Shown: positions 18,996 to 50,873 of the stretch, one piece after another | Layout of the letters: each line of letters opens with the position of its first letter | Position numbering within the stretch: the stretch's first letter is position 1 | Origin: Verminephrobacter eiseniae EF01-2 | Lineage (GTDB): Bacteria > Pseudomonadota > Gammaproteobacteria > Burkholderiales > Burkholderiaceae_C | DNA: 64,000 bases | Assembly (NCBI RefSeq): GCF_000015565.1 | Contig: NC_008786.1 | Location: forward strand, 2,232,001 to 2,296,000 | Direction of reading: 5' to 3' | Made by a program: the position numbers and the translations under genes | The notes under the pieces: model-generated | Told to the model about the DNA's origin: nothing | Seen by the model: the letters and a program-made list of their open reading frames with translations, nothing else | Database searches by the model: none

Positions 18996-21302
18996 ATGGC
19001 CACCATCACGCTTGACAAAACAACCATCAAAGCCGGCGAGACCGCCGTAGTCACCTTTACTGTCGGGAAGACCCACACCATGAGCACCCTCAATAGGGAT
19101 GGCGTCAGGACAGTCATGAACGTGACCATCACTGGCGGCACCATAGGCGGCTACGACTTCCGATACGTCGATGCCCTCAGCACAGCCACCACCCAGGCCT
19201 ATCAAGGCATCTTCACGCCTACCGCGAACCTGGACAGAACCGAGTGCACCATCCGCTACGACGCTCCCGGCACCGCCAACGACGCCACCAGCGCCACCTT
19301 CATCGTCGACACCCGGGCGCCCACTCTCACGGGCACCCCGACGATCGGCAACCGCAACCTGATCCACGCCAACCAAGTAACCACCATCTCCTTTGTCTTC
19401 TCCGAGCAGTTGAATCAGGCCAGCTTCACGATGTCTGACCTGACGATACCGGCGGGCATGGGCAGGCTGCAGAATCTGCGCACCACCGACGGCGGCAGGT
19501 CTTGGCAGGTAGACCTGAGGGCGCCGGCCAACCTGGCGGCCAACACCGAAGTGAAGGACCTGCAGATCGGCATCAACATGGCCGGCATCACCGATGTCGC
19601 GGGCAACCCGGGCACGGGCAACGTCAACCTCGTCACCTACAACATCGACAACAAGCCGCCCAGCGCCACCATCGTCGTTTCACTCATCCCCACCACGAGC
19701 GACAATGACAGACTGATCTCCATTGCCATCACCTTCGACGAGGAAGTCACCGGCTTTACGGCAGACAACATCGATTTCAGCAACGTCCATGTCGGTGCCC
19801 GTCCCGGCGCCGACCGGACAGGAGCGCTGAACCGCTCACCCGACGGCCGCACCTACACCCTCACCTACACGGTCGCTGCGGACACCGAGGGTGCCACCAA
19901 CACCGTCCGCCTGTTCAACCTCAATACCATTCGTGACACCGCAGGCAACGCCGTTGCGGTCAACCCCACCAGCAACAACTTCGAGATCGACGCCCGGGCG
20001 CCCACGGTCACGGTCACGATGGACAAAGAGCGCCTGACCGCTGGCGAAACCGCCACCGTCACGTTCACCTTCAGCGAGACCGTCCCCGGCTTCGGCGACA
20101 CTTCCATCGTTATGCATGGTGCCAACGGCGCTCTGAGCAACCTGAGGCAGACCACAGCCGACGGCAGAGTCTGGACCGCCACCTTCACCCCCACGGCCAG
20201 CCTGTCCAACGCCCGCAGCCAGATCAGCGTGAATTACGAGGGCATCAGAGATCGCTACGGCAACGGCAGAAGTGGTCTGAGCGCAGCCCACAACTACACC
20301 GTAGACACCGCCGTTTTTGCCATCATCAGCGCCACGGTGAACGGCAGGCAGTTGGTATTGCAGTACAGCGATGAAACCGCGCTGGACCCGGACCAGACCC
20401 ATAACGCGCCCAACGATGCGTTTGTGGTGCTGGTCGATGGCGTGCGCAACAACGTCACCGGCGTGCTCGTGGATGCAGCGGCCAAGACCATCACGCTGAC
20501 GCTCGACAGCGCCGTGACCCGGGGCCAGCAGGTGAGCGTCGCCTACGACGACCCCAGCACCGGCGACGACCCGCAAGCGGTGCAAGAAGCCACCACCGGC
20601 AACGACGCGGCCAGCTTCGCGGCCAAACCGGCGACCAACGTTATCCCATCCCCCTCCGCACCGGATGCGTCGAATGGATCGAATGGATCGAATGCGTCAG
20701 ACGCACTGGACTCCGACTACGACAGTGTGCCCAACGCCCAGGAAAACCAGGCCCCCGGCCTGCTGCGCCCCGATGGCTCGGCCGGCCTGGATGGCGACGG
20801 CAACGGCGACGGTATCCGGGACAGCGAGCAGGTCGCCGTCGGCTCGACCCGCGACCTGACCTTGGTGGCCGGCAGCCAGGACGGCAAGCTGATCCCCGGC
20901 AGCAACGCGCGCATTACCGAACTGGTGCGTAGCGATGCCCCCGCCAGCCTGCCCAAGGGCATGGAAATGCCGCTCGGTCTGACGCAATTCAGGGTCGGCC
21001 TGTCCGAAGGACGCTACACCGAGAGCTTCAGCCTGTATGTGGACCCGGCCACCGGCGCCACCGGCTACTGGGTCAAGAACAGCGCCGGCACCTGGGTGAA
21101 CCTGGCCAGCGCACCCTACGGCGGCAAAATGAGCACCGAAGGCGGGCGCACGCGGCTGGACTTTCAGATCCAGGACGGCGGCCAGTACGATGCCGACGGA
21201 CTGGCCGATGGCAACATCACCGCCCTTGGCGCCGCAGCGAAAATGCCGCTGTCCATCGTCGGGCAGTCGCCCCAGGTCGAGTCGCATGGGTACTGGTTCT
21301 AG
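18996..21302 (+). CDS. Ig-like repeat surface protein, short paralogue B
   Basis: A 768-residue protein from ATG 18996 behind GAAAAGGAAAG. The layout is the same as the preceding gene: four Ig-like modules, SwmB-like module, linker, Asp-rich calcium-like motifs and anchor domain, here ending SHGYWF. The N-terminal 20 residues match the second gene of the array rather than the third, another sign of mosaic exchange. The linker is encoded by 9-bp repeats giving NGSNGSN. No signal peptide is visible. The final TAG lies inside the CTAG border of a palindromic element inserted exactly at the stop codon. The gene therefore keeps its full length, but the sequence that once followed it is gone. Confidence 0.88.
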   Translation: MATITLDKTTIKAGETAVVTFTVGKTHTMSTLNRDGVRTVMNVTITGGTIGGYDFRYVDALSTATTQAYQGIFTPTANLDRTECTIRYDAPGTANDATSATFIVDTRAPTLTGTPTIGNRNLIHANQVTTISFVFSEQLNQASFTMSDLTIPAGMGRLQNLRTTDGGRSWQVDLRAPANLAANTEVKDLQIGINMAGITDVAGNPGTGNVNLVTYNIDNKPPSATIVVSLIPTTSDNDRLISIAITFDEEVTGFTADNIDFSNVHVGARPGADRTGALNRSPDGRTYTLTYTVAADTEGATNTVRLFNLNTIRDTAGNAVAVNPTSNNFEIDARAPTVTVTMDKERLTAGETATVTFTFSETVPGFGDTSIVMHGANGALSNLRQTTADGRVWTATFTPTASLSNARSQISVNYEGIRDRYGNGRSGLSAAHNYTVDTAVFAIISATVNGRQLVLQYSDETALDPDQTHNAPNDAFVVLVDGVRNNVTGVLVDAAAKTITLTLDSAVTRGQQVSVAYDDPSTGDDPQAVQEATTGNDAASFAAKPATNVIPSPSAPDASNGSNGSNASDALDSDYDSVPNAQENQAPGLLRPDGSAGLDGDGNGDGIRDSEQVAVGSTRDLTLVAGSQDGKLIPGSNARITELVRSDAPASLPKGMEMPLGLTQFRVGLSEGRYTESFSLYVDPATGATGYWVKNSAGTWVNLASAPYGGKMSTEGGRTRLDFQIQDGGQYDADGLADGNITALGAAAKMPLSIVGQSPQVESHGYWF

Positions 21303-21465
21303 TGTCGCGTCACCGATCAGATGTCGTAGGCTGCGCGCAGCCATCGGAGCGCAGCGCAAGGCGCATCGCGCAGCCCATACCGATCTGTATTGGCAAGCGA
21401 TGCAACGCCGCGATGCGCTTCGATGGCCAGCGCAGACCGACAGATGATCGGTGACGCGACACCAG
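21299..21465 (-). mobile_element. Palindromic MITE-like element, copy A
   Basis: The core 21303-21461 (159 bp) starts TGTCGCGTCACCGATCA and ends with its near-complement, bordered by CTAG on the left and CCAG (CTGG on the other strand) on the right. It is inverted relative to the other four copies. It encodes no transposase. The left flank is the end of an Ig-repeat gene and the right flank a truncated deacetylase gene on the opposite strand, so the borders do not come from one simple target. Confidence 0.85.
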
Positions 21466-21744
21466 GGTTTCGAGCACCCGACCCGGCACGAAGAAGGTCG
21501 CGGGCATGCGGTATTCCCGGAGCATGTCCAGCAGGTCACCGAGCGCGCGCCAGGGGCCGCAGGCGCCCAGCGTGAACAGCCAGGGATTGCGCCCAATCGA
21601 GCCGTCGAGCATGGCCGCGCCGGTGGGGCCATCGACATCGAACGCGGGCGCAACGCTCGACGGAGCGCCGTTCGGCCACAGGCTTTGCGGCACCTGTTGC
21701 GGCGCTCGTTGCGCCAGCTCTTGCACCATTCCTTGCGCCATCAT
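21462..21744 (-). pseudogene. Polysaccharide deacetylase, 5' fragment cut by element
   Basis: Reading from about 21744 (two adjacent ATG codons) on the minus strand gives about 94 residues with the start of a polysaccharide-deacetylase (PuuE/allantoinase-like) fold: FDVDGPTG, then GPWRALGDLLDMLREYRMPATFFVPGRVLETL. The frame then runs into the palindromic element and ends within it. Family members are usually about 280-300 residues and carry the catalytic Asp-His-His residues partly beyond this point, so the product cannot be active. It follows the amino-acid binding-protein gene by 17 bp and was probably the last gene of that operon. Confidence 0.75.
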
Positions 21745-21761
21745 CGGCACGGGCGCGCCCG

Positions 21762-22592
21762 TCAGTCGGCACTGTCGAGAATCAGCTTCGACACCGTGTA
21801 ATCGGCCAGCCCCCACTTGGCGGCGATCTTCGCATACGAGCCATCGGCGATCAGTTGGTCCATCGCGCCGGCCAGTTCTGTCGATAGCGCTTCGTCCTTG
21901 CGCCCGATCGCCAGACCGACGTACTGGAAGGCGAAGGGTTTGCCCACCAGCGCATAGGTGTTCGGCTCCTGCCCGAAGATGTAGTTCAGCGTTTCGCCGC
22001 CCTGCACGGCGGCATCGAGACGGCCTTGGCGCAACTGCGTGCGCGCGTCCGCCGATCCGTCGGTGCCGGCGACGATGATGGCCGGCTTGCCGGCCTTCAC
22101 GCAGTGCGCGTCGCTCCACTTGGCGATCTCGGCCAGAAACGATGTGCGGCGGCTGGCGCCCACCTTCTTGCCGCACAGCGCCTCGGTGCTGGCAAACTCG
22201 GTGGCACGGGCGCCGAGCACATAAAACTGCGGCCCGGTCTTCAGGTAGTCGATGAACCGCACCGCATCGCGGCGTGCCGGGATGTCGGTCATGCCGGACA
22301 GGATGATGTCCACGCGCCCGGTGGCGAGCGAGCTCATCATCTGGTCGAAGCTGGTTTCCTCCCATTTGATCGTGCTGCCCAGGCGCGCCGCGAGCGCTTC
22401 GCCCAGGTCGATGTCGAAGCCGACCAGTTTGCCGCTCGCCGGATCCTTGTATTCGAGCGGGGGATAGTTCGACACGACGGCCGCCCGGATCGGCGCGCCC
22501 TTGGCGCGCATTCCTTGCGCCTGGGCTGCGGGCGCGGCCAGGCCGAGCGCCACGGCCAGGAGGCCGATGCCGGTGAGTGTGTTGCGCGCCAT
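21762..22592 (-). CDS. Polar amino acid ABC transporter, periplasmic binding protein
   Basis: A 276-residue protein starting at the ATG ending at 22592, with a typical signal peptide (basic start, hydrophobic LLAVALGLAAPAAQAQG). The mature part has the family-3 solute-binding fold: PPLEYKDPASGKLVGFDIDLGEALAARLG, then DQMMSSLATGRVDIILSGMTDIPAR, and ends with ADGSYAKIAAKWGL. It would bind an amino acid or close relative in the periplasm and deliver it to the permease encoded just upstream. The ligand cannot be read from sequence. It is the fourth gene of a minus-strand operon (lyase, permease, ATPase, binding protein). Confidence 0.9.
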   Translation of the reverse strand: MARNTLTGIGLLAVALGLAAPAAQAQGMRAKGAPIRAAVVSNYPPLEYKDPASGKLVGFDIDLGEALAARLGSTIKWEETSFDQMMSSLATGRVDIILSGMTDIPARRDAVRFIDYLKTGPQFYVLGARATEFASTEALCGKKVGASRRTSFLAEIAKWSDAHCVKAGKPAIIVAGTDGSADARTQLRQGRLDAAVQGGETLNYIFGQEPNTYALVGKPFAFQYVGLAIGRKDEALSTELAGAMDQLIADGSYAKIAAKWGLADYTVSKLILDSAD

Positions 22593-22641
22593 GTGCGTAC
22601 TCCAGTCAGTGAGGCAAAGGAAAGGGGTCAAAGGAAAGGGG

Positions 22642-23421
22642 TCAGCCGCGCACTGCGGAAATGAATTCGCGCGTGCGCGGGTGCCGGGGTTGCAGCAAGA
22701 TCTGGCCGGGGGAGCCGGTCTCGACGATCCGGCCCTGGTCCATGAATATGACGCGGCTGGACACGTCGCGTGCAAAGCCCAGTTCGTGGGTCACGACCAC
22801 CATCGTCATGCCCGAGGCGGCCAGGTCGCGCATGACCGAGAGCACCTCGCCCACCAGTTCCGGATCGAGCGCCGAGGTCGGCTCGTCGAACAGCATCAGT
22901 TGCGGACGCATCGCCAGCGCGCGCGCAATGGCCACGCGCTGCTGCTGCCCGCCCGACAGCTCGATCGGGAACGCATCGCTCTTGTGCGCCAGGCCGACAC
23001 GCGCCAACAACGCCTGCGCCTCGGCAATGACCTGGTCGCGTGCGCGGCGCTGCACCCGCAGCGGGCCTTCGGTCACGTTCTCCAGCGCCGTCATATGCGG
23101 GAACAGGTTCAGGCGCTGGAACACCATGCCGGTCTTGCGCCGCTGGCGGGCGATTTCCGATTCCGACAGCGCGTACAGCTTGTTGCCGACGCGCCGGTAA
23201 CCGACCAGTTCACCGCCCACCCAAAGCGCGCCGGCGGTCACGGTTTCGAGCTGGTTGATGCAGCGCAGAAAGGTGCTCTTGCCCGAACCCGACGGGCCGA
23301 TGACGCACAGCACCTCGCCGGCGGGGATATCGACCGTGATGCCCTCGAGCGCCTGGAACGCGCCGAAGCTCTTGCACACATCGACGGCGCGCACGATGGG
23401 TTCGCTGTGGGGGCCGCCCAT
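22642..23421 (-). CDS. Polar amino acid ABC transporter, ATPase
   Basis: A 259-residue ATPase of the GlnQ/HisP type. All motifs are intact: Walker [11 protein letters not shown]-loop [13 protein letters not shown], signature LSGGQQQR, Walker [15 protein letters not shown] and switch His in VVVTHELGF. The start at 23421 (MGGPHSEP) is chosen because the permease stop is at 23424, giving tight coupling; upstream in-frame codons lie inside the permease gene. It powers import by the adjacent permease and binding protein. Confidence 0.92.
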
Positions 23422-23423
23422 GC

Positions 23424-24299
23424 TCACTGCCTCGCGCTGGCGCGGCCGGCGCCGCGCGCGAAATGGGACTCGACGCGCGACTGCAGCAGCGCCAGCACGG
23501 TGACCACCGCGATGTACCAGATGCCCGCCACGATCAGCAACTCGATCACGCGGGCGTTGGCGTAGTAGATGTTCTGCGCGTTGTGCAGGATCTCGGCGTA
23601 CTGGATCACGCTCGCCAGCGAGGTGAGTTTGATCATGCCGACGAACTCGTTGCCGATGGGTGGAATGATCACGCGCATGGCCTGCGGCAGGATCACACGG
23701 CGCAGTGCCAGCATGCGCGGCATGCCGATCGACTTGGCGGCCTCGTACTGACCGGCATCGACCGACAGCAGCCCGGCGCGCACCACTTCGGAGGTATAGG
23801 CACCCTGGTTGATGCCCAGGCCCAGTAGCGCGGCAAGAAAGGGGCTCATCACGTCGACGGTGCGCACCTCCCACACCCCGGGAATGCCCAGGGTCGGAAG
23901 CACCAGCGCGAGGTTGAACCACAGCAGCAGTTGCAGGATTACGGGCGTGCCGCGAAAGAGCCAGACATAGGTGCGCGCAACCCAGCCCAGCACCGGGTTG
24001 CTCGACACCCGCATCACCGCCGTGACCACGCCCAGCACGACACCCAGCGCCATCGCCAGGATGCTCATGACGACGGTATTGACCAGGCCGCTGCGGATCG
24101 ATTCGGCCGTAAGGAAGCGGCCGACATACTGCCATTCGATCTGGCCGCGCGCGAATGCATCGAGGATGAACAGCACTGCGGCGAGGATCAGCGCGGTCGC
24201 AATGTAGCGGCCCCAGTAGCGCCGAGGCACATGCTGCAAATGGGAGATGTCCGCCAGCGCGCAAGCGTCCACGGCCTGGCGGCTGCCGGCGGTCAGCAT
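23424..24299 (-). CDS. Polar amino acid ABC transporter, permease
   Basis: A 291-residue membrane protein of the HisM/GlnP type, with a soluble N-terminal stretch of about 45 residues and then about five to six membrane segments. The EAA-like loop reads [33 protein letters not shown]. The start MLTAGSRQ at 24299 overlaps the lyase stop (ATGCTGA), indicating translational coupling; a longer frame would run inside the lyase gene. Only one permease gene is present, so the channel is expected to be a homodimer. Confidence 0.9.
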
Positions 24300-25735
24300 C
24301 GCGGACCTGCGTAGGCGCCATGGGTCCATTCGCCCTGCCGCGCCAAGGCGGCCTGCGCGCGTGCGATCTGCTCGCTCACCCGCTGCGGCGCAGTGCCGCC
24401 ATACCCGGTGCGCGCGCCAATCGCGGCATCGAGCGTCAGGTGCTGCAACACCTCGGGCGTGAGGCGCGCATCGACCTGCGCCAGCAGGGCCTGGGACACA
24501 GCGCTCAATTCGATGCCCTTGGCCTCGCATGCCTGCACCAGTGCGCCGGTGATTTCATGCGCTTCGCTGAAGGGCACACCCGAGAGCGCCAGCCAGTCCG
24601 CCACCTCGGTCGCCAGCGTGAAGCCCAGCGGCGCCTGGCGCCTGAGCCGTTCGACATCGATGCGCATGGTGCGGATCATTGCGGCCAGCGCCGGCAGCAC
24701 CAGCGACAAGGTATCGATGCTGTCGAAGGCCGCGCTCTTGTCTTCGGCCAGGTCGCGGTTGTAGGCCAGCGGCAAGGACTTCAGTGCCGACAGCATGCCC
24801 ACCAGGTTGCCGATCAGGCGGCCCGCCTTGCCGCGGCTCAATTCCGCGATGTCGGGGTTTTTCTTCTGCGGCATGATCGAACTGCCGGTGCAGTAGCCGT
24901 CGTCGAGTTCCACCCACTGGAACTGCCGCGACGACCACAGCACCACCTCTTCCGAGAGCCGCGAGAGTTCGACGGCGAGCATGCTGCAGACAAAGAGGAA
25001 CTCGCACACATGGTCCCTGGCCGCCACTGCGTCGATCGAGTTCTCGCACGGCGCGTCGTAGCCCAGTTCGGCGGCCGATAGTTCAGGCGAGCGGCAGATC
25101 GCCGAGCCTGCCAGGGCCGCAGCGCCCAGCGGCGAACGCGCGCTGCGCCGATCCCAGTCGATCAACCTGTCGATATTGCGGCCAACCGCCTGCACATGCG
25201 CCATCAGATGGTGCGCGAACACGATGGGCTGCGCGGGCTGCAAGTGTGTGAACCCGGCCGACAGCGTGCCGATGTGCTGCTGCGCTTGCGCAATGAGCGC
25301 GCTCTGCAGATCATGCACTGCGGCGGCGATGACGCGCGCCTTGTCGCGCAAATAGAGCTTCAGGTCGTTCGCCGCCTGGTCGTTGCGCGAACGGCCCGCG
25401 CGCAGCTTGCCGCCGAGGGGGCCGAGCCGCTCGGTCAGCACCCGTTCGAGGAAGGTGTGGACATCTTCGTCGGCCTCGCAGGCACGCACCGCGCCGGTCA
25501 GGTAGTCTTGCTCCAGCGCATCGACGCAAGCCAGCAGTTTTTCCAGCTCGTCGCTCTTGAGGATACCTGCGCGGTGCAGCTCGCGTGCATGTGCCCGCGA
25601 GCCTGCGAGGTCATAAGGCACCAGTCGGAAAAAACCAGGCTCCGACCGCGACAGCGCCTTCAATGCGGCCGATGGCTCGGACCTGAAACGTGCGCCCCAC
25701 AGACGTTGGGTTGGACCTGCTGCTTGCGTTTGCAT
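24293..25735 (-). CDS. Argininosuccinate lyase-like protein (fumarase/aspartase superfamily)
   Basis: A protein of about 480 residues, close to the usual ArgH length of about 460. It has the ArgH-type stretch [38 protein letters not shown], and the superfamily signature [12 protein letters not shown]. The start at 25735 (MQTQ) is preferred because GAGG lies 7 nt before it; an ATG two codons earlier has GAGG only 1 nt away. Argininosuccinate lyase splits argininosuccinate into arginine and fumarate. Being first in an operon with an amino-acid transporter, this copy more likely acts in catabolism of an imported N-substituted amino acid than in arginine synthesis. That is inference. Confidence 0.85.
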
Positions 25736-25936
25736 GGACATGCCTCGAACAATCGAGCCGGCATCGTAGTAAGGACATCCATCGATGAAAACTGAAATTA
25801 AAGCCGCGCCTGGCTGCAAAAAATCTCAGCACTCGATTTCAAGCCACGCGAAGAAATGCCGAAAGCATAGGCAAGACAGGTTGTGGCATGAATTTTGCCG
25901 CCAGCCATTTCGCATTCGGAATCGGAAAAAGATCAA
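25736..25936. promoter_or_regulatory. Divergent promoter region between lyase operon and LysR gene
   Basis: About 200 bp with lower GC than the flanking genes, including runs of A/T near 25788-25830 and 25920-25936. This is the expected place for a LysR-type operator and both promoters. I could not fix a specific T-N11-A site. Confidence 0.5.
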
Positions 25937-26851
25937 ATGCACGACCCCGCGAAACGCATCCTGCCCAGAAGCCGTCTGCCTCCTTTGAATGCGTTGCGCG
26001 CCTTTGACGCGACCGCGCGCCACCTGACGGTGGCGAAGGCAGCGGACGAACTGAACGTGACCCCGAGCGCAGTGAGCCATCAACTGCGCGCGCTCGAAAA
26101 TGCGCTCGGCGTGCAACTCTTTCGCCGCAACAAGACCCGCTTGAAATTGACCTCGCATGGCGAGACGCTGTTGCCCTCGGTGCGCTCGGCCTTCCAGATG
26201 ATTGCGAACGCAGCCGCGAAGCTCGGCGACCCGGCAATGGTCGGCAACCTCGTCGTGTCGGCGCCGGTGGGTTTGAGCTCCAGGGTGTTGACGCGCCACA
26301 TCGGCGAATTCCTGTCCGCATGCCCGGATGTCCAGTTCCGGTTGATCGCCTCGAACGAAGACAAGGAGGTCTACTCGCCCGCAGTCGATCTGTGCCTGCG
26401 CTATGGCACCGGCATATGGCCGGACCGCCAAGTTCGCCTGCTGACGCATGTGGAGCTTTTCCCGGTCTGCAACCCGGCCATGATCAACGGTCAGCCGGGC
26501 CTGCGTTCCGTCGACGAACTGAGGAACCATCAGTTGCTGTGCGAGGACAACGGCACGGAGTGGACCCGCTGGCTCCTGGACGCCGGCATGCCGGTGGCCG
26601 GTTTCCGGATGGCCGAAATGGGCAACGCGCATATCGCCATGGAAGCCGCTGTGCATGGGCAGGGCGCCGCACTGGGCGACAGCTTGCTCGTTGGCGACGA
26701 CCTCGCCGAGGGCCGGCTGGTGCGCCTGTTCGAGCGCAGCGTGCCGGCCAAGCACGCCTATTACATGGTGTGCCGCCACGAAATGTCTGCCAACCCGCTC
26801 GTGGCGGCCTTCACCGAATGGCTGCTGACCTGGGTCCGCAGCTATGGCTGA
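25937..26851 (+). CDS. LysR-family transcriptional regulator (GcvA-like)
   Basis: A 304-residue regulator starting at ATG 25937 (MHDPAKR). The N-terminal winged helix-turn-helix is clear: PPLNALRAFDATARHLTVAKAADELNVTPSAVSHQLRALENALGVQLFRR. It is followed by a LysR substrate domain with the GcvA-like PAVDLCLRYGTG and QGAALGDSLL stretches. It is divergent from the lyase/amino-acid transporter operon and is most likely its regulator, responding to the imported compound or a product. A TTG at 25895 in frame is rejected because it lacks a ribosome binding site and adds non-family residues. Confidence 0.9.
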   Translation: MHDPAKRILPRSRLPPLNALRAFDATARHLTVAKAADELNVTPSAVSHQLRALENALGVQLFRRNKTRLKLTSHGETLLPSVRSAFQMIANAAAKLGDPAMVGNLVVSAPVGLSSRVLTRHIGEFLSACPDVQFRLIASNEDKEVYSPAVDLCLRYGTGIWPDRQVRLLTHVELFPVCNPAMINGQPGLRSVDELRNHQLLCEDNGTEWTRWLLDAGMPVAGFRMAEMGNAHIAMEAAVHGQGAALGDSLLVGDDLAEGRLVRLFERSVPAKHAYYMVCRHEMSANPLVAAFTEWLLTWVRSYG

Positions 26852-26981
26852 AACGCCGTGTCGCCGGGCGCTTTGCGGACACTGCCGCCCTGCGCACCTG
26901 GGGCCCACCCGATGGGGCATCCCACTTTGCCCCCACTTTGCGCAATGGAGTCGAGGCAAGGCTGAACGAGCCCGCGCGCGT

Positions 26982-28262: not shown

Positions 28263-28286
28263 TTATTTCAGCCTCGCCCGCTGCAC

Positions 28287-36479: not shown

Positions 36480-36646
36480 CTAGTGTCGCGTCACCGATCA
36501 TCTGTCGGTCTGCGCTGGCCATCGAAGCGCATCGCGGCGTTGCATCGCTTGCCAATACAGCTCGGTATGGGCTGCGCGATGCGCCTTGCGCTGCGCTCCG
36601 ATGGCTGCGCGCAGCCTACGACATCTGATCCGTGACGCGACACTAG
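36480..36646 (+). mobile_element. Palindromic MITE-like element, copy B
   Basis: The core 36484-36642 (159 bp) lies between perfect CTAG borders at 36480-36483 and 36643-36646. The ends are TGTCGCGTCACCGATCA and its near-complement. It sits between the Bug-family remnant and the promoter region of the next operon. It carries one more base than copies C and D (near 36558), so it is not a multiple of three. Confidence 0.88.
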
Positions 36647-38429: not shown

Positions 38430-38929
38430 AGCGCGCCGCCGACAGGTTGATCGAGACCCTGGTGTCGCGTCACCGATCATCTGTCGGTCCGCGCTGGCCA
38501 TCGAAGCGCATCGCGGCGTTGCATCGCTTGCCAATACGCTCGGTATTGGCTGCGCGATGCGCCTTGCGCTGCGCTCCGATGGCTGCGCGCAGCCTACGAC
38601 ATCTGATCGGTGACGCGACACTAGTTCGACACGGCGTCGAGCGGATCTTCCATGTCCCCGGTGAAAGCTGTCTCAGCGTGCTGGATGGCTTGGCTGATGG
38701 TTCGCCGCCTGTAACGGCGGACATGTCTGCCGCGACCTGTCGCCATGAAAGCGCTGCTGGCGTCCTGGCGCTCGCCGATGCGTGTCTGACCGAAGGCGCG
38801 CTGCGCCAGGCACTGGCCTGTGGCCGGGCGGCCGTGCTTGCGGTGCGCGCGCGTCTGGAACATGTTTCGGCCGCAGCCACCATGGACGAACTGCGGCTTC
38901 GCCGGCCCCCGGTGCCGCAAGAGGCTTGA
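38426..38929 (+). pseudogene. Thiamine-pyrophosphate enzyme gene: element insertion plus large internal deletion
   Basis: The frame opens MKRAADRLIETL, is interrupted by copy C of the palindromic element, resumes VRHGVERIFHVPGESCLSVLDGL and reaches TCRHESAAG. That is the start of the TPP-binding (acetolactate-synthase-like) fold, including the Glu that activates TPP. It then jumps directly to ALRQALACGRAAVLAVRA and EHVSAAATMDELR, which is the C-terminal end of the family. About 400 residues are missing, so no activity is possible. Remarkably, the frame remains open through element and deletion alike, giving a 167-residue reading frame. Confidence 0.82.
38459..38624 (+). mobile_element. Palindromic MITE-like element, copy C
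   Basis: The core 38463-38620 (158 bp) is bordered by CTGG on the left and CTAG on the right. Core plus four border bases is 162 bp, or 54 codons, so it inserts in frame between the Leu and Val codons of ETL-VRHGVER in the TPP-enzyme gene. Removing it restores a continuous family sequence, which confirms the exact borders. Confidence 0.9.
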
Positions 38930-41845: not shown

Positions 41846-41846
41846 C

Positions 41847-42794: not shown

Positions 42795-42801
42795 GGACTG
42801 C

Positions 42802-43698
42802 ATGAAAACGGATTTCTTCAATCTCCCGATGCCGGCGACCGCGCCGAACACGGCGCCGTCACCCAAAGGCCCGGGGCAGTTCAGGGCGCAACTGACCCGC
42901 GGACCGGCGGCGGTCGCCTTGGCGATTTTTGCCACGGTCGTGCTGCTGGCCCTGTTTGCCCCGCTACTGGGCACGGTGGACCCGGTGGCGATCGATCCGT
43001 CGCAACGGCTGGCACCGATCTCGGCCGACCATTGGCTTGGCACCGATGTTTTCGGGCGTGACACCTATTCGCGTGTGCTGTATGGCGCGCGGGTGTCGCT
43101 GATCATTGGCCTGGGCGCCATGGTTGCGAGCATCGCGCTGGGCCTGGTGATCGGGGTGGTGGCGGGCTACTTTCGCGTGGCCGATGCGATCGTGATGCGG
43201 GTCATGGATGGCGTGATGGCCATTCCGGGCATCCTTTTGGCCATCGCGCTGGTCTCGCTGACCGGCAGCACGTTGCTGACGGTGCTGGTGGCGATCACCG
43301 TGCCCGAGGTGCCACGGGTGGTCCGGCTGGTGCGCGGCGTGATTCTGGGCGTGCGCTCGGAGCCGTATGTGGAGGCCGCCATCGCGCTGGGCGCGCGCGC
43401 CCCCCGGTTGCTGTTGCGCCATATGGTGCCGGCCACCGTGGCCCCGCTGATCGTCCAGGGTACGTACATCTTCGCCTCGGCCATCCTGACCGAGGCCACG
43501 CTGAGTTTTCTGGGCGCGGGCCTGCCCTCGGAGACGCCGTCGTGGGGCAACATCACGGCCGATGGCCGGGCCTATTTCCTGCTCTTTCCGGGCCTGATCC
43601 TGTATCCCGGCATCATTTTGGCGTTGACGTTGCTGAGCGTGAACGTTCTTGGCGACATGCTGCGTGACATGCTCGATCCACGCAGCGGAAAGCGGTGA
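42802..43698 (+). CDS. Peptide-type ABC transporter permease (DppC-like)
   Basis: A 298-residue membrane protein starting at ATG 42802 (MKTDFFNLP). A longer frame from 42754 would overlap the upstream gene and is rejected. DppC marks are visible: HWLGTDVFGRDTYSRVLYGARVSL, the coupling loop YVEAAIALGARAPRLLLRHMVP and the end LGDMLRDMLDPR. Its stop overlaps the start of the ATPase gene. Confidence 0.92.
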   Translation: MKTDFFNLPMPATAPNTAPSPKGPGQFRAQLTRGPAAVALAIFATVVLLALFAPLLGTVDPVAIDPSQRLAPISADHWLGTDVFGRDTYSRVLYGARVSLIIGLGAMVASIALGLVIGVVAGYFRVADAIVMRVMDGVMAIPGILLAIALVSLTGSTLLTVLVAITVPEVPRVVRLVRGVILGVRSEPYVEAAIALGARAPRLLLRHMVPATVAPLIVQGTYIFASAILTEATLSFLGAGLPSETPSWGNITADGRAYFLLFPGLILYPGIILALTLLSVNVLGDMLRDMLDPRSGKR

Positions 43699-45359
43699 CC
43701 ATGGGCCATGCCGTACTCGCGATCGAGCAGCTACAGGTCAACGTTGCAGGCCCGGGCGGGCGCGCCATCGTCAAGGGCGTGAGCTTGCAGGTCATGGCGG
43801 GCGAGACCGTCTGCGTGGTGGGGGAGTCGGGTTCGGGAAAGTCCGTCATGGCCTTTTCCGCCATGGGCCTGCTCGCTCCCGACGAACTGCGCTGCGTCGC
43901 CGGGCGCATCCTGCTGGATGGCGAGAACCTCCTCGATGCCAGCCCCGCGCGCCAGCGCGAGCTGCGCGGCACGCAGTTGGCAATGGTGTTCCAGGAGCCG
44001 ATGACGGCGCTCAATCCGGTCGAGAAGATAGGCTGGCAGATCGACGAGGTGCTGCGCCTTCACGGCTGCGCCAGCAAGGCGCATCGGCGCGCGCAGGTGC
44101 TGGAGATGCTGCGCTCGGTGCACATGCCCGATCCGGTGCGGATATATGAGGCCTACCCGCACCAATTGTCCGGCGGCCAGCGCCAACGGGTGGTGATCTC
44201 GATGGCCCTGATTCTCAAGCCCAAGCTGCTGATCGCCGATGAGCCGACCACGGCGCTCGATGTGACGACGCAAAAGCAGATACTGGCACTCGTGCGCGAA
44301 CTCCAGCAGCAGCATGGCACGGCGGTGCTCTTCATCACGCACGATTTCGGCGTCGTTGCCGAGATCGCAAACCGGGTGGTCGTCATGAACCATGGCCAGG
44401 TGGTCGAAACCGGCACGCGCGACGACATCCTGATGCGCCCCGCGACGGCCTACACGCGAACGCTGGTGTCGTCGGTGCCCAGCCTCGTGCCCGAAGCGCG
44501 GCCGCCGAGTCAGGGCGCGATCGTCCTGCAAGCCTCGGGCCTGGGCAAGACCTACAGCCAGAGGCGGTGGTTCGGCCGCGCCCAATGTGTAGCCGCAGCG
44601 CAGGACATCCATTTCACGCTGCGGCGCGGCGAAATTTTGGGCATCGTTGGCGAATCCGGCTGCGGTAAATCGACGGTGGCCCGTTGCATCGTCCGATTGC
44701 AAGAACCCAGTTCGGGCGCTATCCATATCCATGGCGTGGACATCGCCCGAACGCGCGGCCGTGCCCTGCGCGCGCTGCGCCAGCGCGTGCAGATCGTGTT
44801 TCAGGATCCATACCGATCGCTGAATCCGCGTGTGCGCGTGGGCGAGTCGATGATCGAAGGGCTGATCAGCCACGGCATGCCTCGCCCCCAAGCCATGCAC
44901 AGGGCGCGCGCGCTGTGCGCCTCCGTCGGCGTCGATGCCGGGTTGCTGGAGCGTTATCCGCACCAGTTCTCGGGCGGGCAGCGCCAGCGCATCTGCATTG
45001 CGCGCGCGCTTGCGCTGGAGCCGGACATCCTGGTGGCCGACGAAGCCGTCTCGGCGCTCGATGTCTCGGTGCAAGCGCAGGTGCTCGCGCTGCTGCAAGA
45101 CATCCGCCAGCGGACCGGCGTGGCGATTTTGTTCATCACCCATGACCTGCGCGTCGCCGCGCAGATCTGCGACAACATCATGGTCATGCAACACGGCCGA
45201 ACGATCGAGCAGGGGCCGGCCGCGCAGGTGCTGACCGCCCCGAGCCAGCCCTACACCAACGCGCTGATCGAGGCCGCACCCGGGCGTGACTGGGACTTCA
45301 AGAATTTCAGGCCGCTCGCGCGCAGCGCAGTGCGCCAGCGCCACGGGGCGCCATCGTGA
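43695..45359 (+). CDS. Peptide ABC transporter ATPase, fused DppD-DppF type
   Basis: A 554-residue protein carrying two complete ABC modules. Module one (residues about 5-260) has [32 protein letters not shown] and FITHDFGVV. Module two (about 285-545) has [32 protein letters not shown] and FITHDLRVA. In the second Walker B, Ala replaces Pro after the catalytic Glu. Fusion of the two ATPases into one chain is common in this transporter class. The start is the GTG at 43695, coupled to the permease stop (GTGA); ATG 43701 is an alternative. Confidence 0.92.
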
Positions 45360-45661
45360 CCCTGCCTGCCTGCGGCATCCTGATCCGCAACGCGGGCATC
45401 GCTGACGGCGCGGGCGCTGCGTGCGTCGATGGCGGCATCGCCATCTGCGGCGCCCGCATGGCGCGCAGCGCAGCGCCATGCGCGCAGCGCGTGCGGCGTG
45501 GAATCGACGCGGCGGGGCTGGTCGTCGCTCGCGCCAGGCGTCATCGACGCCCACACGCATGACGGCTGCATGCCATTGTCTGGCGCAGACATGGGCGGCC
45601 AAGGCCAGCCAGCGCGTGACCCCGTGATCGCCGGCCACTGCGGAATCGCACCCGGGCCTGG
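45356..45661 (+). pseudogene. D-aminoacylase / N-acyl-D-amino-acid deacylase, frameshifted 5' fragment
   Basis: From the GTG at 45356 (overlapping the ATPase stop) the frame reads GILIRNAGIADGAG and then RRGIDAAGLV, the usual amidohydrolase opening. It then loses the frame; a different frame continues APGVIDAHTHDGCMP, with the metal-binding HTH, and later DPVIAGHCGIAP. Several residues between these blocks are missing relative to the family, and everything after residue about 100 is gone, because the sequence abuts copy D of the palindromic element. Family members are about 480 residues. This gene probably supplied the D-amino acid for the nearby dehydrogenase. Confidence 0.78.
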
Positions 45662-45823
45662 TGTCGCGTCACCGATCATCTGTCGGTCTGCGCTGGCCAT
45701 CGAAGCGCATCGCGGCGTTGCATCGCTTGCCAATACGCTCGGTATGGGCTGCGCGATGCGCCTTGCGCTGCGCTCCGATGGCTGCGCGCAGCCTACGACA
45801 TCTGATCCGTGACGCGACACTAG
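45658..45823 (+). mobile_element. Palindromic MITE-like element, copy D
   Basis: The core 45662-45819 (158 bp) is bordered by CTGG on the left and CTAG on the right. The left flank is the deacylase fragment and the right flank is the end of an unrelated binding-protein gene on the opposite strand. The missing rest of the deacylase gene points to deletion or recombination at this copy. Confidence 0.88.
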
Positions 45824-45852
45824 TGTGCCGCCGCGCTGCCGGCAGCAGCCGC

Positions 45853-46890
45853 TCAGTCGGCCTCGATTCCCTTGGCCGCCAGCGCCCAGAGCTTGCGGTC
45901 TGCCTGGCCCTTGGCGGCCAGCGTCTCGGCCGTGCCGGCCCAGACATCGTAGCCCTGGTCGAGCAGGCGCGCGGCCACGTCTTCGCGTGCCAGCATCTTG
46001 CGCACTGCGGCCGTGATGCGCGCCGCCAGCGCCTTGTCCATGCCGGCCGGGCCGTACAGGCCATACCAGCCGCCGACATCGTAGTCGGCCACGCCGGACT
46101 CGATCATGGTCGGCACGCCGGGCAACATGCGATTGCGCTGGCGCGAGGTGACGGCCAGCGCGCGCACCTTGCCGGACGTGATGTAGGCGCGCGCGCTGGC
46201 GACGATGTCGAACATCATCGCGATATTGCCCGCCATCACGTCGGACATTGCCGGCGCATTGCCCTTGTACGGCACATGCGACAGCGGCGCGCCGGTCATG
46301 CGCTCCAGCAGCGCGGCGCTCATGTGGTTGGAGGCGCCAATGCCGGCCGAGCCGTAGAACAGCTTGCCGGGGTTGGCGCGGGCATAGGCCAGCAGTTCGC
46401 CGACATTGCGCACCGGCAGTTCCGGGTTGACCACCAGCACATTGGTGTAGGTCAGCAGCGGCGCGATCGGCAGCAGGTCCTTGCCCGGGTCGAACGACAT
46501 CTTGCGCTGGATGTTGGGGTTGATGGTGATGGTCGGGCTGGCGCCGAAGTAGATCATCGCGCCATCGGGCGGCGCCTTGGCCACCGCGTCGCCGCCGAGC
46601 GAGCCGCTCGCGCCGGGCCGGTTCTCGACGATGACCTGGGTGCCGAGTTCGGCCGCCAGGGCCGGCGCCAGCAGCCGCGCACAGCCGTCCACCGGGCCGC
46701 CCGCGCTGTAGCCGACGACGAGCTTGATGATGCCCGGCAGGTGCGCGCCGGCCTGCGCGCCAGCGCCTGCGGACCAGCCGAGCAGCGGACCGGCGGCGGC
46801 CAGCGCCAGCAGGCGGCGGCGCCCCCCGTCCAGGCGGTCGAAATGATCCCAATGGTCCCAATGGTACAGGCCGTTCAGATTCTTTTTCAT
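45853..46890 (-). CDS. TctC/Bug-family periplasmic solute-binding protein
   Basis: A 345-residue protein from the ATG ending at 46890, with AAGGAAAT upstream. Bug-family features: IKLVVGYSAGGPVDGCARLLA, VIVENRPGASGSLGGDAVAKAPPDG, and GSAGIGASNHMSAALLERMTGAPLSHVPYKG. The signal region is unusual: MKKNLNGLYHWDHWDHFDRL precedes the hydrophobic segment (LLALAAAGPLL) because of a 9-bp repeat encoding His-Trp-Asp. Such proteins bind carboxylates; the ligand is unknown. No tctAB genes are next to it, as is common for Bug proteins in Burkholderiales. Confidence 0.88.
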   Translation of the reverse strand: MKKNLNGLYHWDHWDHFDRLDGGRRRLLALAAAGPLLGWSAGAGAQAGAHLPGIIKLVVGYSAGGPVDGCARLLAPALAAELGTQVIVENRPGASGSLGGDAVAKAPPDGAMIYFGASPTITINPNIQRKMSFDPGKDLLPIAPLLTYTNVLVVNPELPVRNVGELLAYARANPGKLFYGSAGIGASNHMSAALLERMTGAPLSHVPYKGNAPAMSDVMAGNIAMMFDIVASARAYITSGKVRALAVTSRQRNRMLPGVPTMIESGVADYDVGGWYGLYGPAGMDKALAARITAAVRKMLAREDVAARLLDQGYDVWAGTAETLAAKGQADRKLWALAAKGIEAD

Positions 46891-47037
46891 GCATCATTTC
46901 CTTGGTGGATGGAGCTTGCGCAACCCGAACCCGGGCCGTGCGCCGTTCCGTCGATGGCTGCACATAATGAAATCGCTGCGCGCCGGCCGATCTGCATTGG
47001 CATTTTCATTACCTGAACATGCGTTGGCGAACCCGGA

Positions 47038-48234
47038 TCAGGCACGACGATGGGCTCCCGCGAATGTTTTCCAGCATAAAAACATTCCGGCAAAACATAA
47101 TGGCACCATCATCATGTTGGTGCCCATCCAGCCAAAGCCGGCCAGCAGCGGAGCAGGCAGAAACGCGCCCAGCGTGGCACACCCGGCGATCAGGGTGTCG
47201 TTGATTCCTTGCCAGCGATGGCGTTCCTGGTCGCTGACCTTTTGGGTGAGCAATGCGCCACCGCCCACATAAACGAGATTCCAACCCAAGCCAACCAGAA
47301 TCAACCCGATGAATACGGCATGGTAACTGATATCCATCATGCCAAATCCCGCCGCACCGAGCAGCAGCATGAATCCGGTGATCAGGACTTGCCGCAGGCC
47401 GATGGCGCCGATCAGTGAGCCGGTAAAGAATGAGGGAACGAACATTGCCAGCACATGAACTTGAATGGCGCGTGAAGAGGCATCGAAAGAACAGATGTTT
47501 TTCATGACCAGCGAGGCTTGCACCATCAGCAAATTCATCACGAAGTAGCCGCCAGCCGACGCGACGATGGCGGCGACGATGGCAATGTTCCATTGCCCGG
47601 ATTGCACTGCCGGCACCGGATTTGCGCCGGCTTCATGCATTCGGGCAGTCTTTGGCGGAGTCCATAATGCCATCAGCAACAAGGTCAGCATGCCCAAAGC
47701 AGAAAACGCAGCATAGCACAGGGAAAAATCGGTATGGCCGACGACATTGCGCAATGAACTGGCAATGGCCGGCCCAATGATTGCCGCCAGCACGCCACCG
47801 GCCACAACCCATGAGATGGCGCGCGCCTTGGTTTCAGGGGGAAGATCGTCAACGGCGGCAAATCGATAGAAATTGGCGCAGGCGATATAAATGCCCAGTA
47901 GCCCATGCGCGACGATCAAAAGCAGGAAGCTCTCTTGCGTGACGGCGATATAGCCAACCAAACCGGCGCTGATCAGAAAGACTGCGCCCAGGGAAAATAC
48001 GATGCGCCGCCCATGGCGCCGCATCAGCATCGATGCCGGGTAAGTAAACAGCATGACGGCGGCAAATTGAATACCATAGGGTATCGTGCCGAGGGCTGCG
48101 GTCGCGGCCAGTTTCGTTCCGACCAGGGCCGCAATGGTGACGGAGATGACCGCTGCGGTCAGATTGAATGCCTGGGCCAGTGTCAGCAAATAAATCGACC
48201 AAGGCAGGCGGCCTGGAGATGGGGTGGTTGTCAT
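47038..48234 (-). CDS. Major facilitator superfamily transporter
   Basis: A 398-residue protein with about 12 hydrophobic segments, starting at 48234 (MTTTPSPGRLPWSIYLLTLAQAF). The loop between segments 2 and 3 has the MFS motif-A-like MLMRRHGRRIVFSLGAVFL, and there is a longer central loop after segment 6 (WTPPKTARMHEAGANPVPAV). GC content looks lower than in the neighbouring genes. The substrate is unknown. It stands alone between two operons. Confidence 0.88.
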   Translation of the reverse strand: MTTTPSPGRLPWSIYLLTLAQAFNLTAAVISVTIAALVGTKLAATAALGTIPYGIQFAAVMLFTYPASMLMRRHGRRIVFSLGAVFLISAGLVGYIAVTQESFLLLIVAHGLLGIYIACANFYRFAAVDDLPPETKARAISWVVAGGVLAAIIGPAIASSLRNVVGHTDFSLCYAAFSALGMLTLLLMALWTPPKTARMHEAGANPVPAVQSGQWNIAIVAAIVASAGGYFVMNLLMVQASLVMKNICSFDASSRAIQVHVLAMFVPSFFTGSLIGAIGLRQVLITGFMLLLGAAGFGMMDISYHAVFIGLILVGLGWNLVYVGGGALLTQKVSDQERHRWQGINDTLIAGCATLGAFLPAPLLAGFGWMGTNMMMVPLCFAGMFLCWKTFAGAHRRA

Positions 48235-48371
48235 TGAATATCTGATGCCGATTTGCGCAAGTCCTCGTGAAATGTCCGGGCCACGGGCCGCTACCACCGT
48301 GCAGCGCCGGCTGCACCGGGCCACGGTGCAGCGAATCCCCGGGCAACGGCGGGCATGGATGGCCGGGCCGC

Positions 48372-50873
48372 CTATCCAGGCAGGTGCAGCACCTGGCGTG
48401 CCAGGATGTTGCGCTGTATCTCGTTGGTGCCGCCGTAGATCATGGCGCTGCTGGCGCCGATCAGCGGCGCCAGCGCGTTGAATGTCTGGCCGTCGAGTTC
48501 CTGGTCGCCGGCGATTGCGCCTTGCTCCTCGCTGGCCTCGACCAGCAGGGCGCCGATGCGGTGATAGGTTTCGCTGGCCCAGATTTTGAGCAGCGAGACC
48601 GATGCCGGCAGTGGCTTGCCGGCTTTGACGATGTTCGCGAATCCGGCGTAGGCCGCCGACAGATCGGCCACGTCCAGGCGCAGCGCGGTGTAGCGCTGCA
48701 CGAATACCGGGTCGGCAAACAGCCGGCGCGCCTGCGCCAGGCGCTCGAGTTGGCCCAGCGCGTATTGCGACTGTTTCGGGCTGCCGAGAAAGATGCGCTC
48801 GAAGCCGAGCAGCGCCTTGGCGATGCTCCAGCCCGCATGGAGCTGGCCCACCAGGTTCTCGGCGGGCACGCGCACGTCGTCGAAAAACAGTTCACAAAAT
48901 TCGGGCTCGCCGGCCAGCGTCTGGATGGGGCGGATCGTGATGCCGGGCGTGCGCAGGTCGCACAGCAAAAAGCTGATGCCGGCCTGCTTTTTGGCGTTTT
49001 TGTCGGTGCGCACCAGCATGAAGATATGGTTGGCGTCCTGTGCCAGCGTGGTCCAGATTTTTTGGCCGTTGACGATGAAGTGCTCGCCCTGGGCATCTTG
49101 CGCCCGGACGGCCTCGGTGCGCAGACCCGCCAGGTCGGAGCCGGCATTCGGCTCGGAGTAGCCCTGGCACCACACATGCTCGCCGCTGAGGATCTTCGGC
49201 AAGAAGCGCTGCTGCTGCCCGGGCGTGCCGTGCTGTATCAGCAGCGGGCCGATCATCACGATGCCCTGGTCCGGCGCGCGGGCCACGCCGTACTGCTCCA
49301 ATTCTTCGATCCAGGCGATCAGCTTGTCGGCGGGCAGGCCCATGCCGCCATGCGCCTGCGGCCAGGCCGGCGCGATCCAGCCCTGCGCCGATAGCCTGAG
49401 GTACCAGGCGCGCATCTCGCTCCAGCGCGCACGGTGCGACAGGTAGCGCAGTGGCGCCGGATAGTGCTGGCGCAGGAACGCGCGCAACATGCGCCGGAAT
49501 GGCGCCTCGGGCATCGCGGCCCAGTCGGCCGTGCGGGGAAAGCCCTGTTCCCATGCGGCGTCGTCCGGGGCTGGCCCGGCGCCGGTCGGCGCGGCTGCGG
49601 CGAGCGCCGCATAGTGGCGCTGGTGCGCCGAGGCATTGCCCAGCCAGGCCGACAGGCGCAGCGTGCGCTTGTAGAACAGGCTCAGCGCGCATTCCTGCGT
49701 GTAGCCGATCGCGCCGTGCAATTGCAGCGCCGAACGCGAGATCAGCAGCGCCGCCGCGCTGCAACGCGCATTGACGCGGCTGGCCTGCGCTTCCAGCCGC
49801 TCCAGGGCCAGTGTCGTCTCCGCCAGCATCGCATCCGCCAGCGCCAGCACCTCGGCCAGCGTGGCGCGGGCGACTTCCAGGTGGATGTACATGTCCACGC
49901 AGCGGTGCTGCAGGGCCTGAAAGCTGCCAATGGGCACGCCGAACTGCGAGCGGCTGCGCAGATGGGCCAGGGTCTGCTCCAGCATCGCCTGGCCAACGCC
50001 GAGCAGTTCTGCCGATTGCAGAATCCGGGCGCAGGCGAGCGCCTGGCGCAACGCATCCTGCGCGGCGTTGCCCTGGGCCAGCAAGGCGCTGGCGGGCAGC
50101 GCCACCTGCTCCAGGCGCAGCGCCGCCGCCTGCGTGCCGTCGACCAGGGTGGTGAGGGTCTCGCTCACGCCCGGCGTGCCACGGGGAACCCACAGCAGCA
50201 CGGTGTCGCCATCGCCATCGCCGCGCGCCGACACCAGCCAGCCGCTGGCGGCGGCGCCAGGCAGCACCATCAGTTTTTCGCCTTGCAGCAGCACGCCGCC
50301 TTCAGGCCCGGTGCGCGGCTCGCAGCCGCAGTTCAGCGGCACGGCGCTGAGGTCGCCGGGGCTTTCCTGCCAGGCCAGCGCGGGCAGGCTGCGGCCTGCC
50401 ACCAACTCGGCCAGCAGCGCACGCGCGCCGGTCCGCTCTAGTGTCGCGTCACCGATCATCTGTCGGTCTGCGCTGGCCATCGAAGCGCATCGCGGCGTTG
50501 CATCGCTTGCCAATACGCTCGGTATTGGCTGCGCGCAGCCTACGACATCTGATCCGTGACGCGACACTAGGCGCGCCAGCAATACGGCGCTCAGGCCGGC
50601 AACCGCCAGCAGCGGCTCTGGCGCCACATGCGTGCCGGCGGCGCACAGGATTTCGGCCGCGCCGGTCAGGCCCAGCGCCAGGCCGCCGACCGACTCGGGC
50701 GCCAACATGCCGGGCCAGCCGAGCTCGGCCAAAGCGGCCCAGCCCGGGCTTGCAGCGCCTGCGGCAATGCCGGGCGGCGGCTCGACCCACGCGCGGCAGC
50801 GCCCGATGCTGTCGCTGCGGGTGAAGTAGTCGAGCGCCGCCTCGCGGATCGCTGCCTGTGATTCGTGGTCCAT
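48372..50873 (-). CDS. Double-domain acyl-CoA dehydrogenase with in-frame palindromic-element insertion
   Basis: An 833-residue protein starting at 50873 (MDHESQ). It contains two acyl-CoA dehydrogenase modules. The first (residues about 1-455) ends with SALQLHGAIGYTQECALSLFYK. The second (about 470-833) has QGYSEPNAGSDLAGLRTEAV for FAD binding and ends MIYGGTNEIQRNILARQVL. Fused or paired modules of this kind act on bulky acyl-CoA such as side chains. Residues 103-145 are encoded by copy E of the palindromic element. Without it the sequence would read VLLARL-ERTGARALLAELVAG, a normal family sequence. The element lies between helices of the N-terminal domain, so the protein may still fold. 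Whether it is functional is not known. Confidence 0.85.
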   Translation of the reverse strand: MDHESQAAIREAALDYFTRSDSIGRCRAWVEPPPGIAAGAASPGWAALAELGWPGMLAPESVGGLALGLTGAAEILCAAGTHVAPEPLLAVAGLSAVLLARLVSRHGSDVVGCAQPIPSVLASDATPRCASMASADRQMIGDATLERTGARALLAELVAGRSLPALAWQESPGDLSAVPLNCGCEPRTGPEGGVLLQGEKLMVLPGAAASGWLVSARGDGDGDTVLLWVPRGTPGVSETLTTLVDGTQAAALRLEQVALPASALLAQGNAAQDALRQALACARILQSAELLGVGQAMLEQTLAHLRSRSQFGVPIGSFQALQHRCVDMYIHLEVARATLAEVLALADAMLAETTLALERLEAQASRVNARCSAAALLISRSALQLHGAIGYTQECALSLFYKRTLRLSAWLGNASAHQRHYAALAAAAPTGAGPAPDDAAWEQGFPRTADWAAMPEAPFRRMLRAFLRQHYPAPLRYLSHRARWSEMRAWYLRLSAQGWIAPAWPQAHGGMGLPADKLIAWIEELEQYGVARAPDQGIVMIGPLLIQHGTPGQQQRFLPKILSGEHVWCQGYSEPNAGSDLAGLRTEAVRAQDAQGEHFIVNGQKIWTTLAQDANHIFMLVRTDKNAKKQAGISFLLCDLRTPGITIRPIQTLAGEPEFCELFFDDVRVPAENLVGQLHAGWSIAKALLGFERIFLGSPKQSQYALGQLERLAQARRLFADPVFVQRYTALRLDVADLSAAYAGFANIVKAGKPLPASVSLLKIWASETYHRIGALLVEASEEQGAIAGDQELDGQTFNALAPLIGASSAMIYGGTNEIQRNILARQVLHLPG
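50438..50570 (+). mobile_element. Palindromic MITE-like element, copy E (33-bp internal deletion)
   Basis: The core 50442-50566 is 125 bp between perfect CTAG borders. Relative to the 158-bp copies it lacks 33 bp between two GGCTGCGC direct repeats. Core plus one border is 129 bp, or 43 codons, with no stop in the frame of the host gene. Both the full-length form (162 bp) and the deleted form keep the frame. Confidence 0.92.

Follow-up and report, generated by a model that had tools for sequence, protein, structure and literature searches.

A 64,000-nucleotide stretch of the Verminephrobacter eiseniae EF01-2 genome (contig NC_008786.1, positions 2,232,001 to 2,296,000; the whole stretch is called the window here) contains five copies of a palindromic element that lacks a transposase gene. 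The copies are 159, 159, 158, 158 and 125 bp long. One directly follows the stop of a gene, three lie between genes and one lies within a reading frame without closing it. The relevant features are as follows.

18996..21302, + strand: gene with Ig-like repeats; its stop codon is the TAG in the left border of the first element copy
21303..21461, - strand: element copy, 159 bp, with borders CTAG (21299-21302) and CCAG (21462-21465)
36484..36642, + strand: element copy, 159 bp, with borders CTAG/CTAG, intergenic
38463..38620, + strand: element copy, 158 bp, with borders CTGG/CTAG, intergenic, 33 bp from the 3' end of a called gene
45662..45819, + strand: element copy, 158 bp, with borders CTGG/CTAG, intergenic, 29 bp from the 3' end of a called gene
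48372..50993, - strand: host gene, an acyl-CoA dehydrogenase reading frame of 873 residues, 43 of them contributed by the element
50442..50566, + strand: element copy, 125 bp, with borders CTAG/CTAG, in frame within the gene at 48372-50993

All ten 17-bp ends of these copies are where an earlier sequence-only reading of the window had put them and read TGTCGCGTCACSGATCA with zero mismatches, compared with a mean of 0.58 and a maximum of 4 matches in 100 shuffles. The starts given in that reading (21299, 36480, 38459, 45658 and 50438) are correct and include the 4-bp border. The 125-bp copy is the 158-bp form minus 33 bp, an internal deletion. Paralogues of the gene at 18996-21302 end in ggttctaa or ggttctag at the insertion position. 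Thus, the target of the first copy was a stop codon, and the right border CCAG was probably altered at or after insertion.

The element is not confined to the window. Allowing up to two mismatches, its end was matched 314 times in forward and 315 times in reverse orientation in the host genome (5.60 Mb searched; chromosome of 5,566,749 bases), whereas a reversed control pattern was matched 2 times and 1 time. The genome contains about 315 copies, which make up 0.8-0.9% of it (0.8% of evenly spaced stretches). A search with a 158-nt query listed 391 candidates, 40 of them scored. We analyzed 148 complete copies in 1.09 Mb, a sample in which copies close to the 158-bp consensus, and the surroundings of listed copies, are overrepresented and from which 8 partial copies were excluded beforehand. 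Most are 158 bp (101 copies) or 159 bp (35) long; six are 157 bp and two are 125 bp, with single copies at 156, 146, 126 and 83 bp. In 94 of the 101 158-bp copies the mean is 2.2 substitutions from the consensus, the other 7, with more than 12 differences, having been left out of the count. This near-identity points to a recent burst. Tandem pairs with one common border are found at 3237137/3237299 and 4897529/4897691. The element is short, has terminal inverted repeats and carries no transposase gene.

Together with its borders, the copy at 45662..45819 is predicted to form a single full-length hairpin (-108 kcal/mol, z -10.4). The hairpin is conserved among seven sequences taken from four genomes: 18 pairs are altered on both sides (0 of 500 shuffles), and all slid alignments give far lower values. 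Covariation in a palindrome can also stem from templated correction between the arms. No Rfam family was found at the element in six loci checked, and no promoter or terminator was predicted in positions 45600-45900 of the window.

With 4 bp added, the lengths of the 158- and 125-bp forms are divisible by three, and each of these forms has one stop-free frame per strand, which runs Leu-Val-Ser-Arg-His ... Asp-Ala-Thr-Leu. The sequence-only reading gave each form stop-free frames in both directions, which does not fit the 159-bp copies, in which 163 bp including the border shift the frame and the stop-free frame is on one strand only. The 17-bp end contains TGA in two frames, and its open third frame is the one in which the border has the phase CTA-G.

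Genes were called with a dicodon model of our own trained on the host genome; segments shorter than 2500 bases were excluded from gene calling and all 148 copies were retained. Phase served to recognize the copies and empty sites that lie at stop codons. Insertion into genes, as proposed from the window, was found for 40 of the 148 copies, but most copies (98) are intergenic and 10 are at stop codons. The internal copies are somewhat depleted relative to empty CTAG sites (p 0.03). We defined confident intragenic copies by a gene score of at least 60 and a distance of at least 60 nt from both gene ends, each copy being tested with the others removed. This set consists of 26 copies in 21 called genes. 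Of these, 25 have the phase CTA-G (p about 2e-11 against equal thirds) and in 21 the frame stays open and gains 43 or 54 residues; some of the 26 share a gene or sit in tandem and are not independent in the phase tests. Among all 40 internal copies, 35 have the phase CTA-G and 29 are open.

The proteins that carry the inserts are unrelated to each other, and Pfam matches were obtained for each of the 15 scanned: acyl-CoA dehydrogenase, polysaccharide deacetylase, radical-SAM/lipoyl synthase, PD-(D/E)XK nuclease, solute-binding protein, ATP-grasp acyl-CoA ligase-like protein, TctC receptor, a transposase, SURF1, polyketide synthase, phosphopantetheine-binding protein, ketoacyl synthase, SNF2-type helicase, malonate decarboxylase gamma subunit and MFS transporter. 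The peptide is read in one orientation in 14 and in the other in 7 of the 21 open copies. A Hydrogenophaga homologue of the SNF2-type helicase lacks exactly the 54 inserted residues (counted by eye). At another place, a further 429 residues are missing from the helicase of the host genome, whose gene may be dead.

The acyl-CoA dehydrogenase of the window was aligned with six proteins. A V. eiseniae homologue (P0128; LLAR-LERSAAR) and two Variovorax homologues are free of the insert at the window site. P0127, which is encoded on a contig of 804,981 bases and so not on the host chromosome, and P0226 have the 54-residue form there (LLAR-LVSRH...GDAT-LERPGAR), and the window protein has the same insert minus 11 residues, the 43-residue form. 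P0224 is uninformative at this site. About 210 residues further on, P0128 has a different in-frame insert of 50 residues (PVSRHRSDVV...GDAA). One protein thus shows the empty site, the insertion, its in-frame shortening and an independent second insertion. We infer that the insert-bearing proteins are produced and functional.

Based on the 148 complete copies, the preferred target is CTAG, which is present on both sides of 89 of them. Six copies have XTAG/CTAG or CTAG/CTAC borders, as expected if TA is doubled at a site other than CTAG; at CTAG itself, doubling of TA and a 4-bp duplication yield identical sequence. In 1991 Tenzen and Ohtsubo reportedly found a preference of IS630 for the TA in CTAG. 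Changes of the TA base next to the element are mirror-like: most of those on the left turn A into G, and most of those on the right turn T into C; as a guess, such changes are errors of gap repair after insertion. Evenly spaced stretches totalling 400 kb contain 22 copies (3 of them partial) and 42 empty CTAG sites, and the window 5 copies and 1 empty site. On the assumption that every copy occupies a single CTAG, roughly one in three sampled sites is filled, a striking case of a transposon exhausting its targets. A wider sample of empty CTAG sites comprises 70 intergenic sites, 53 internal sites (41 CTA-G and 12 NCT-AG) and 12 with TAG in frame, which we take as stop codons.

The family to which the element belongs became apparent through insertion sequences (ISs) of other bacteria, which were located through protein similarity rather than through their ends. 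ISPna1 and two relatives (Polaromonas, 1177 bp) and a Caballeronia IS (1219 bp) have CTAG on both sides, encode an annotated IS630 transposase and start with TGTCGCGTCATGA or TGTCGCGACATGC. An Azotobacter IS, the fifth record opened, has a CTAG border and a different start. When the six ends of the three ISPna1-group elements are compared with the two ends of the element, 15-19 of 25 positions agree, and 0-4 of 20000 shuffles are as good. In G731 an end of similar kind, TGTCACGTCACACATGATATGACG, follows CTAG in one copy and CTAC in the other and adjoins a reading frame that corresponds to the N-terminus of an IS630-like transposase. Its 62 residues are 38-56% identical to 10 plasmid records, 7 of them annotated as IS630 transposase and five of them the Polaromonas, Caballeronia and Azotobacter records described above; the reading frame had no match in Pfam or NCBIfam, and a 22-residue query taken from it had none. 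ISY100, another member of the IS630 family, is described in PMC2170065 as doubling TA on insertion. We conclude that the element is very probably a miniature inverted-repeat transposable element (MITE) of the IS630 (Tc1/mariner-like) family, of the ISPna1 type.

The host genome has 27 DDE_3 loci (IS630), and four of its IS630 types are bordered by CTAG. Its IS nearest to ISPna1 by protein (50% over 230 residues) is ISd (C2:4242563-4244076), which has a 412-residue frame. Against the better of the element's ends, the two ISd ends have 15 and 14 identical positions out of 25 (15 and 43 of 50000 shuffles as good); against the other, both have 13 (227 and 180 of 50000). Judged from these sequence comparisons, ISd is the best candidate driver found in the host genome. 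L258 was considered as a parent since an end adjoins an IS630 gene there. Inspection by eye showed a partial element copy beside another IS630, which has the ends TRTTTCGTTTC and a split gene, the split being close to a short tandem duplication. Parents of the IS481/IS3 type were also rejected: among 18 rve_3 loci of the host genome, two are near ordinary copies, one has a single end at 3 mismatches and the rest have none, and four loci have a common left end, TGTCGCATCCCGGACGAT, without the end structure of the element. Separately, an orphan N-terminal half of an IS630-like transposase lies between element copies at C2:4897849-4898828; it has about 150 residues, is 30% identical to ISPna1, and its catalytic part was not seen there.

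By analogy with the family, an IS630-type transposase acting in trans would bind the element ends (TGTCGCGTCAC..ATCA..TGTCG), excise the element and insert it at the TA in the middle of CTAG, so that these two bases are doubled. An older IS630 of the host genome that has related ends may be the driver; alternatively, the driver may have been lost since. Recent spread has produced the roughly 315 copies and filled the CTAG sites to the extent sampled. Copies that land in genes in the open phase add 54 or 43 residues to the reading frame rather than end it. They would be tolerated because TAG in frame is excluded inside genes and most genic CTAG sites have the phase CTA-G, because the element ends are open in that phase on both strands, and because the length plus 4 is divisible by three. 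Insertions that break the frame are probably mostly purged by selection on the host.

Several observations count against this explanation. None of the 27 DDE_3 loci of the host genome has the element's ends as its own (the ends near five of them belong to element copies), no IS with the exact ends was found in that genome, and the one exact end match that deviates from the element's continuation is an ordinary copy. A MITE can outlive its autonomous partner, so that the partner's absence does not exclude membership of the IS630 family. At the borders, the TA base next to the element is altered in 27 (left) and 21 (right) of the 148 copies and the outer TA base in fewer, 7 (left) and 12 (right). 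One of five covariation measures for the hairpin, that of further pair types, was equalled in 44 of 500 shuffles. With regard to genes, the counts depend on our own gene calls, and the frame is closed in 5 of the 26 confident intragenic copies. The frame bias that the sequence-only reading had anticipated, strong against equal phases, is modest against the phases of available CTAG sites (41:12; p 0.011, binomial; p 0.029, one-sided Fisher). Among 24 complete copies from the evenly spaced stretches and the window, 17 are intergenic, 4 are at stop codons and 3 are internal, one of these open. Lengths of the 158 type (2 mod 3) are found in 33 of 40 copies in genes and 72 of 108 others (p 0.07), and length class and gene context were not associated among the confident intragenic copies (p 0.10).

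The sequence-only reading had likened the 4-bp CTAG target to that of some IS5-group elements. MITEPsy1 of Pseudomonas syringae, which would be the model for an IS5-type MITE with a 4-bp CTAG duplication, targets CTAG or YTAA, makes a 4-nt duplication and is attributed to IS5, with a question mark in a table (PMC3189936). One copy in the host genome, bordered GTAC/GTAC, fits such an origin and is more simply read as a 4-bp duplication, which also tells against TA doubling. However, the MITEPsy1 ends (GGAAGGTCTGAAAAAGCC) are unlike those of the element, and ISs that have both similar ends and CTAG borders encode IS630 transposases; judged by these ends and borders, an IS5 origin is most improbable. 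RAYT proteins are Y1 tyrosine transposases that read tetranucleotides beside REP/REPIN palindromes. If such an enzyme moved the element in single-stranded form, the tetranucleotides it reads would correspond to the borders. Such a route would suit the full-length hairpin, the tetranucleotide borders and the mirror-like border changes (CTGG on the left, CCAG on the right). We give this account hardly any weight, given that relatives with the same kind of ends have transposases of the DDE type.

Whatever moves the element, its fit to reading frames calls for a separate judgment. This fit is probably a by-product, in which stops are rare, CTAG is mostly CTA-G, frame-breaking copies are purged and the element's frame is under no selection; such an account concerns the frame only and is compatible with an IS630 MITE. 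A G+C content of 65-66% makes stops rare, 13.6% of shuffled interiors are open on both strands, and the CTA-G excess exists among empty sites. Stop-creating interior substitutions in the host genome are not depleted (1 of 44 distinct substitutions compared with 1.5 expected). The CTAG constraint and these undepleted substitutions favor target constraint and host purging over selection on the element's frame. What the by-product account fits less well is that all six translated 158-bp sequences (the host consensus, three copies from another genome of the family and two from Luteimonas) have both strands open in the CTA-G phase. Identity to the query element is 76-92% in the other five, so that the open frames persist through 8-24% divergence in three genomes. 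That the element itself has been selected for translational silence, with one open frame per strand in the genic phase of CTAG, we regard as doubtful. If so, adaptation for entry into proteins would have shaped this mobile element, and the module responsible would be its central core, which also occurs in other palindromic repeats from same-genus genomes. Retention of the inserts by hosts because the added peptides are useful is far less plausible still. Two close homologues, P0127 and P0226, do have the insert at the window site, but the copies are recent and near-identical, the host proteins are unrelated and either peptide orientation is used.

Relatives of the element are present in a few other genomes. 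A genome of another genus of the same family (G456) has it in six places at 89-95% identity, three of them full-length, and Luteimonas sp. BDR2-5 has two full-length matches (81 and 76%) plus a short pair. Acidovorax radicis (G034) and G041, which are same-genus genomes, have an old copy, 73-76% identical, at the same site of a helicase gene. This helicase insert has the same frame open as the element of the host genome (SARRIAQPIPSVLASDATPR in the host element, GARRSPLPIPEVLARTATPR in A. radicis), and a search with the insert alone found it in common to six proteins. Searching for the end at one mismatch gave a single end each in 4 of 147 other genomes (1 of 46 same-genus genomes) and no element beyond these ends; diverged copies, for example those in G034 and G041, escape this search. 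CTAG followed by the end at one mismatch was found in 3 of 398 other genomes in the family scan and 5 of 368 in the class scan. A search of other genomes' contigs, which may omit the host genome itself, matched 52 stretches; the Luteimonas one is the element and the rest match at the end only. Two of seven end matches (L312 and L314) have a second end-like sequence nearby and no element match beyond 17 bp. Three viral matches were rejected as single ends, and a second set of three was rejected after no second matching end was seen at one mismatch. A plasmid search with the element gave one partial core match, in Comamonas.

At least 27 of 46 same-genus genomes contain matches to the central 55 bp of the element. 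Longer palindromic repeats containing this core were seen in same-genus genomes at L149, L161, L163, L165 and L166, with ends like AGAACCTGTTCAA by eye, and in six core-match repeats inspected the outer arms differ from those of the element. G206, from another genus of the family, has several core matches and, at L190 (60-260), a related palindrome whose ends are of the same kind (CTAGTGTCGCGTCAGGGATCAAATGTCG). A distant class member, G667, has a 116-bp A+T-rich element with similar ends and CTAG/CTAA borders (L304, 470-585). A Luteimonas locus (L055, 3370-3487) has an Rfam match to the Xanthomonadaceae small RNA asX1. In the window itself, upstream of the gene at 18996-21302, which has Ig-like and SWM repeats, about 30 tandem copies of a 315-bp unit occupy positions 1-9657 and 4 copies positions 12830-14011, within long reading frames.

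The sequence-only reading knew of no description of the element, and titles of publications revealed none by its end sequence or for miniature inverted-repeat elements of Acidovorax. A description probably exists under another name: in the review PMC3975124, one palindromic repeat, VeiPR1 (Pinel 2009), is said to make up about 2.3% of the V. eiseniae genome and to be unique to the species. With the element masked, no 16-mer recurs in at least 5 of 21 stretches, and an element 16-mer recurs in 15 of the 21. The element is thus the dominant dispersed palindromic repeat of V. eiseniae and, matched by description, is probably VeiPR1. It differs from the report in its measured share of the genome and in having relatives in Luteimonas, A. 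radicis and another genus of the family.

Among characterized ISs, those of the ISPna1 group and Caballeronia are alike in their ends (TGTCGCGTCA or TGTC[GT]CG[AT]CA..GTCGG) and in CTAG on both sides. They differ in having a transposase gene, in length (1177-1219 bp) and in the first 25 bases, of which 15-19 are identical. MITEPsy1 has the CTAG target in common, but it has other ends and adds 104 bp, a frame shift (PMC3189936, in part). ERIC/RU, Correia (NEMIS), RUP and QMITE2 are described in parts of PMC2759123 and PMC5896051 as hairpin MITEs, some flanked by TA and sometimes intragenic or in frame. By those descriptions they are other elements in other hosts, whereas the present element leaves 21 of 26 confident intragenic frames open. 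BRE of Betaproteobacteria is a short repeat with some copies in coding sequence; by the description in part of PMC3110155, it differs in being about 90 bp long and often in tandem, with 1 copy reported in V. eiseniae EF01-2.

Rickettsia is the best-known case of in-frame palindromic insertions, and we know of no named source of the Rickettsia palindromic elements (RPEs). The present host is an earthworm symbiont that, we presume, can be cultured. RPEs are about 150 bp long, palindromic and in frame inside unrelated genes, at a frequency called unusual (PMC10969869, in part). As the sequence-only reading had proposed, the V. eiseniae element is comparable to them, being a mobile palindrome without a transposase that can sit in unrelated protein genes in frame and fold into a hairpin. 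By analogy it would work as an RPE does, here with an identifiable parent family. It differs in its nameable parent and target (IS630 of the ISPna1 type, CTAG), in its near-identical copies and in being mostly intergenic. These properties, together with an insertion history recorded in one protein, make the spread of protein-entering palindromes open to experiment.

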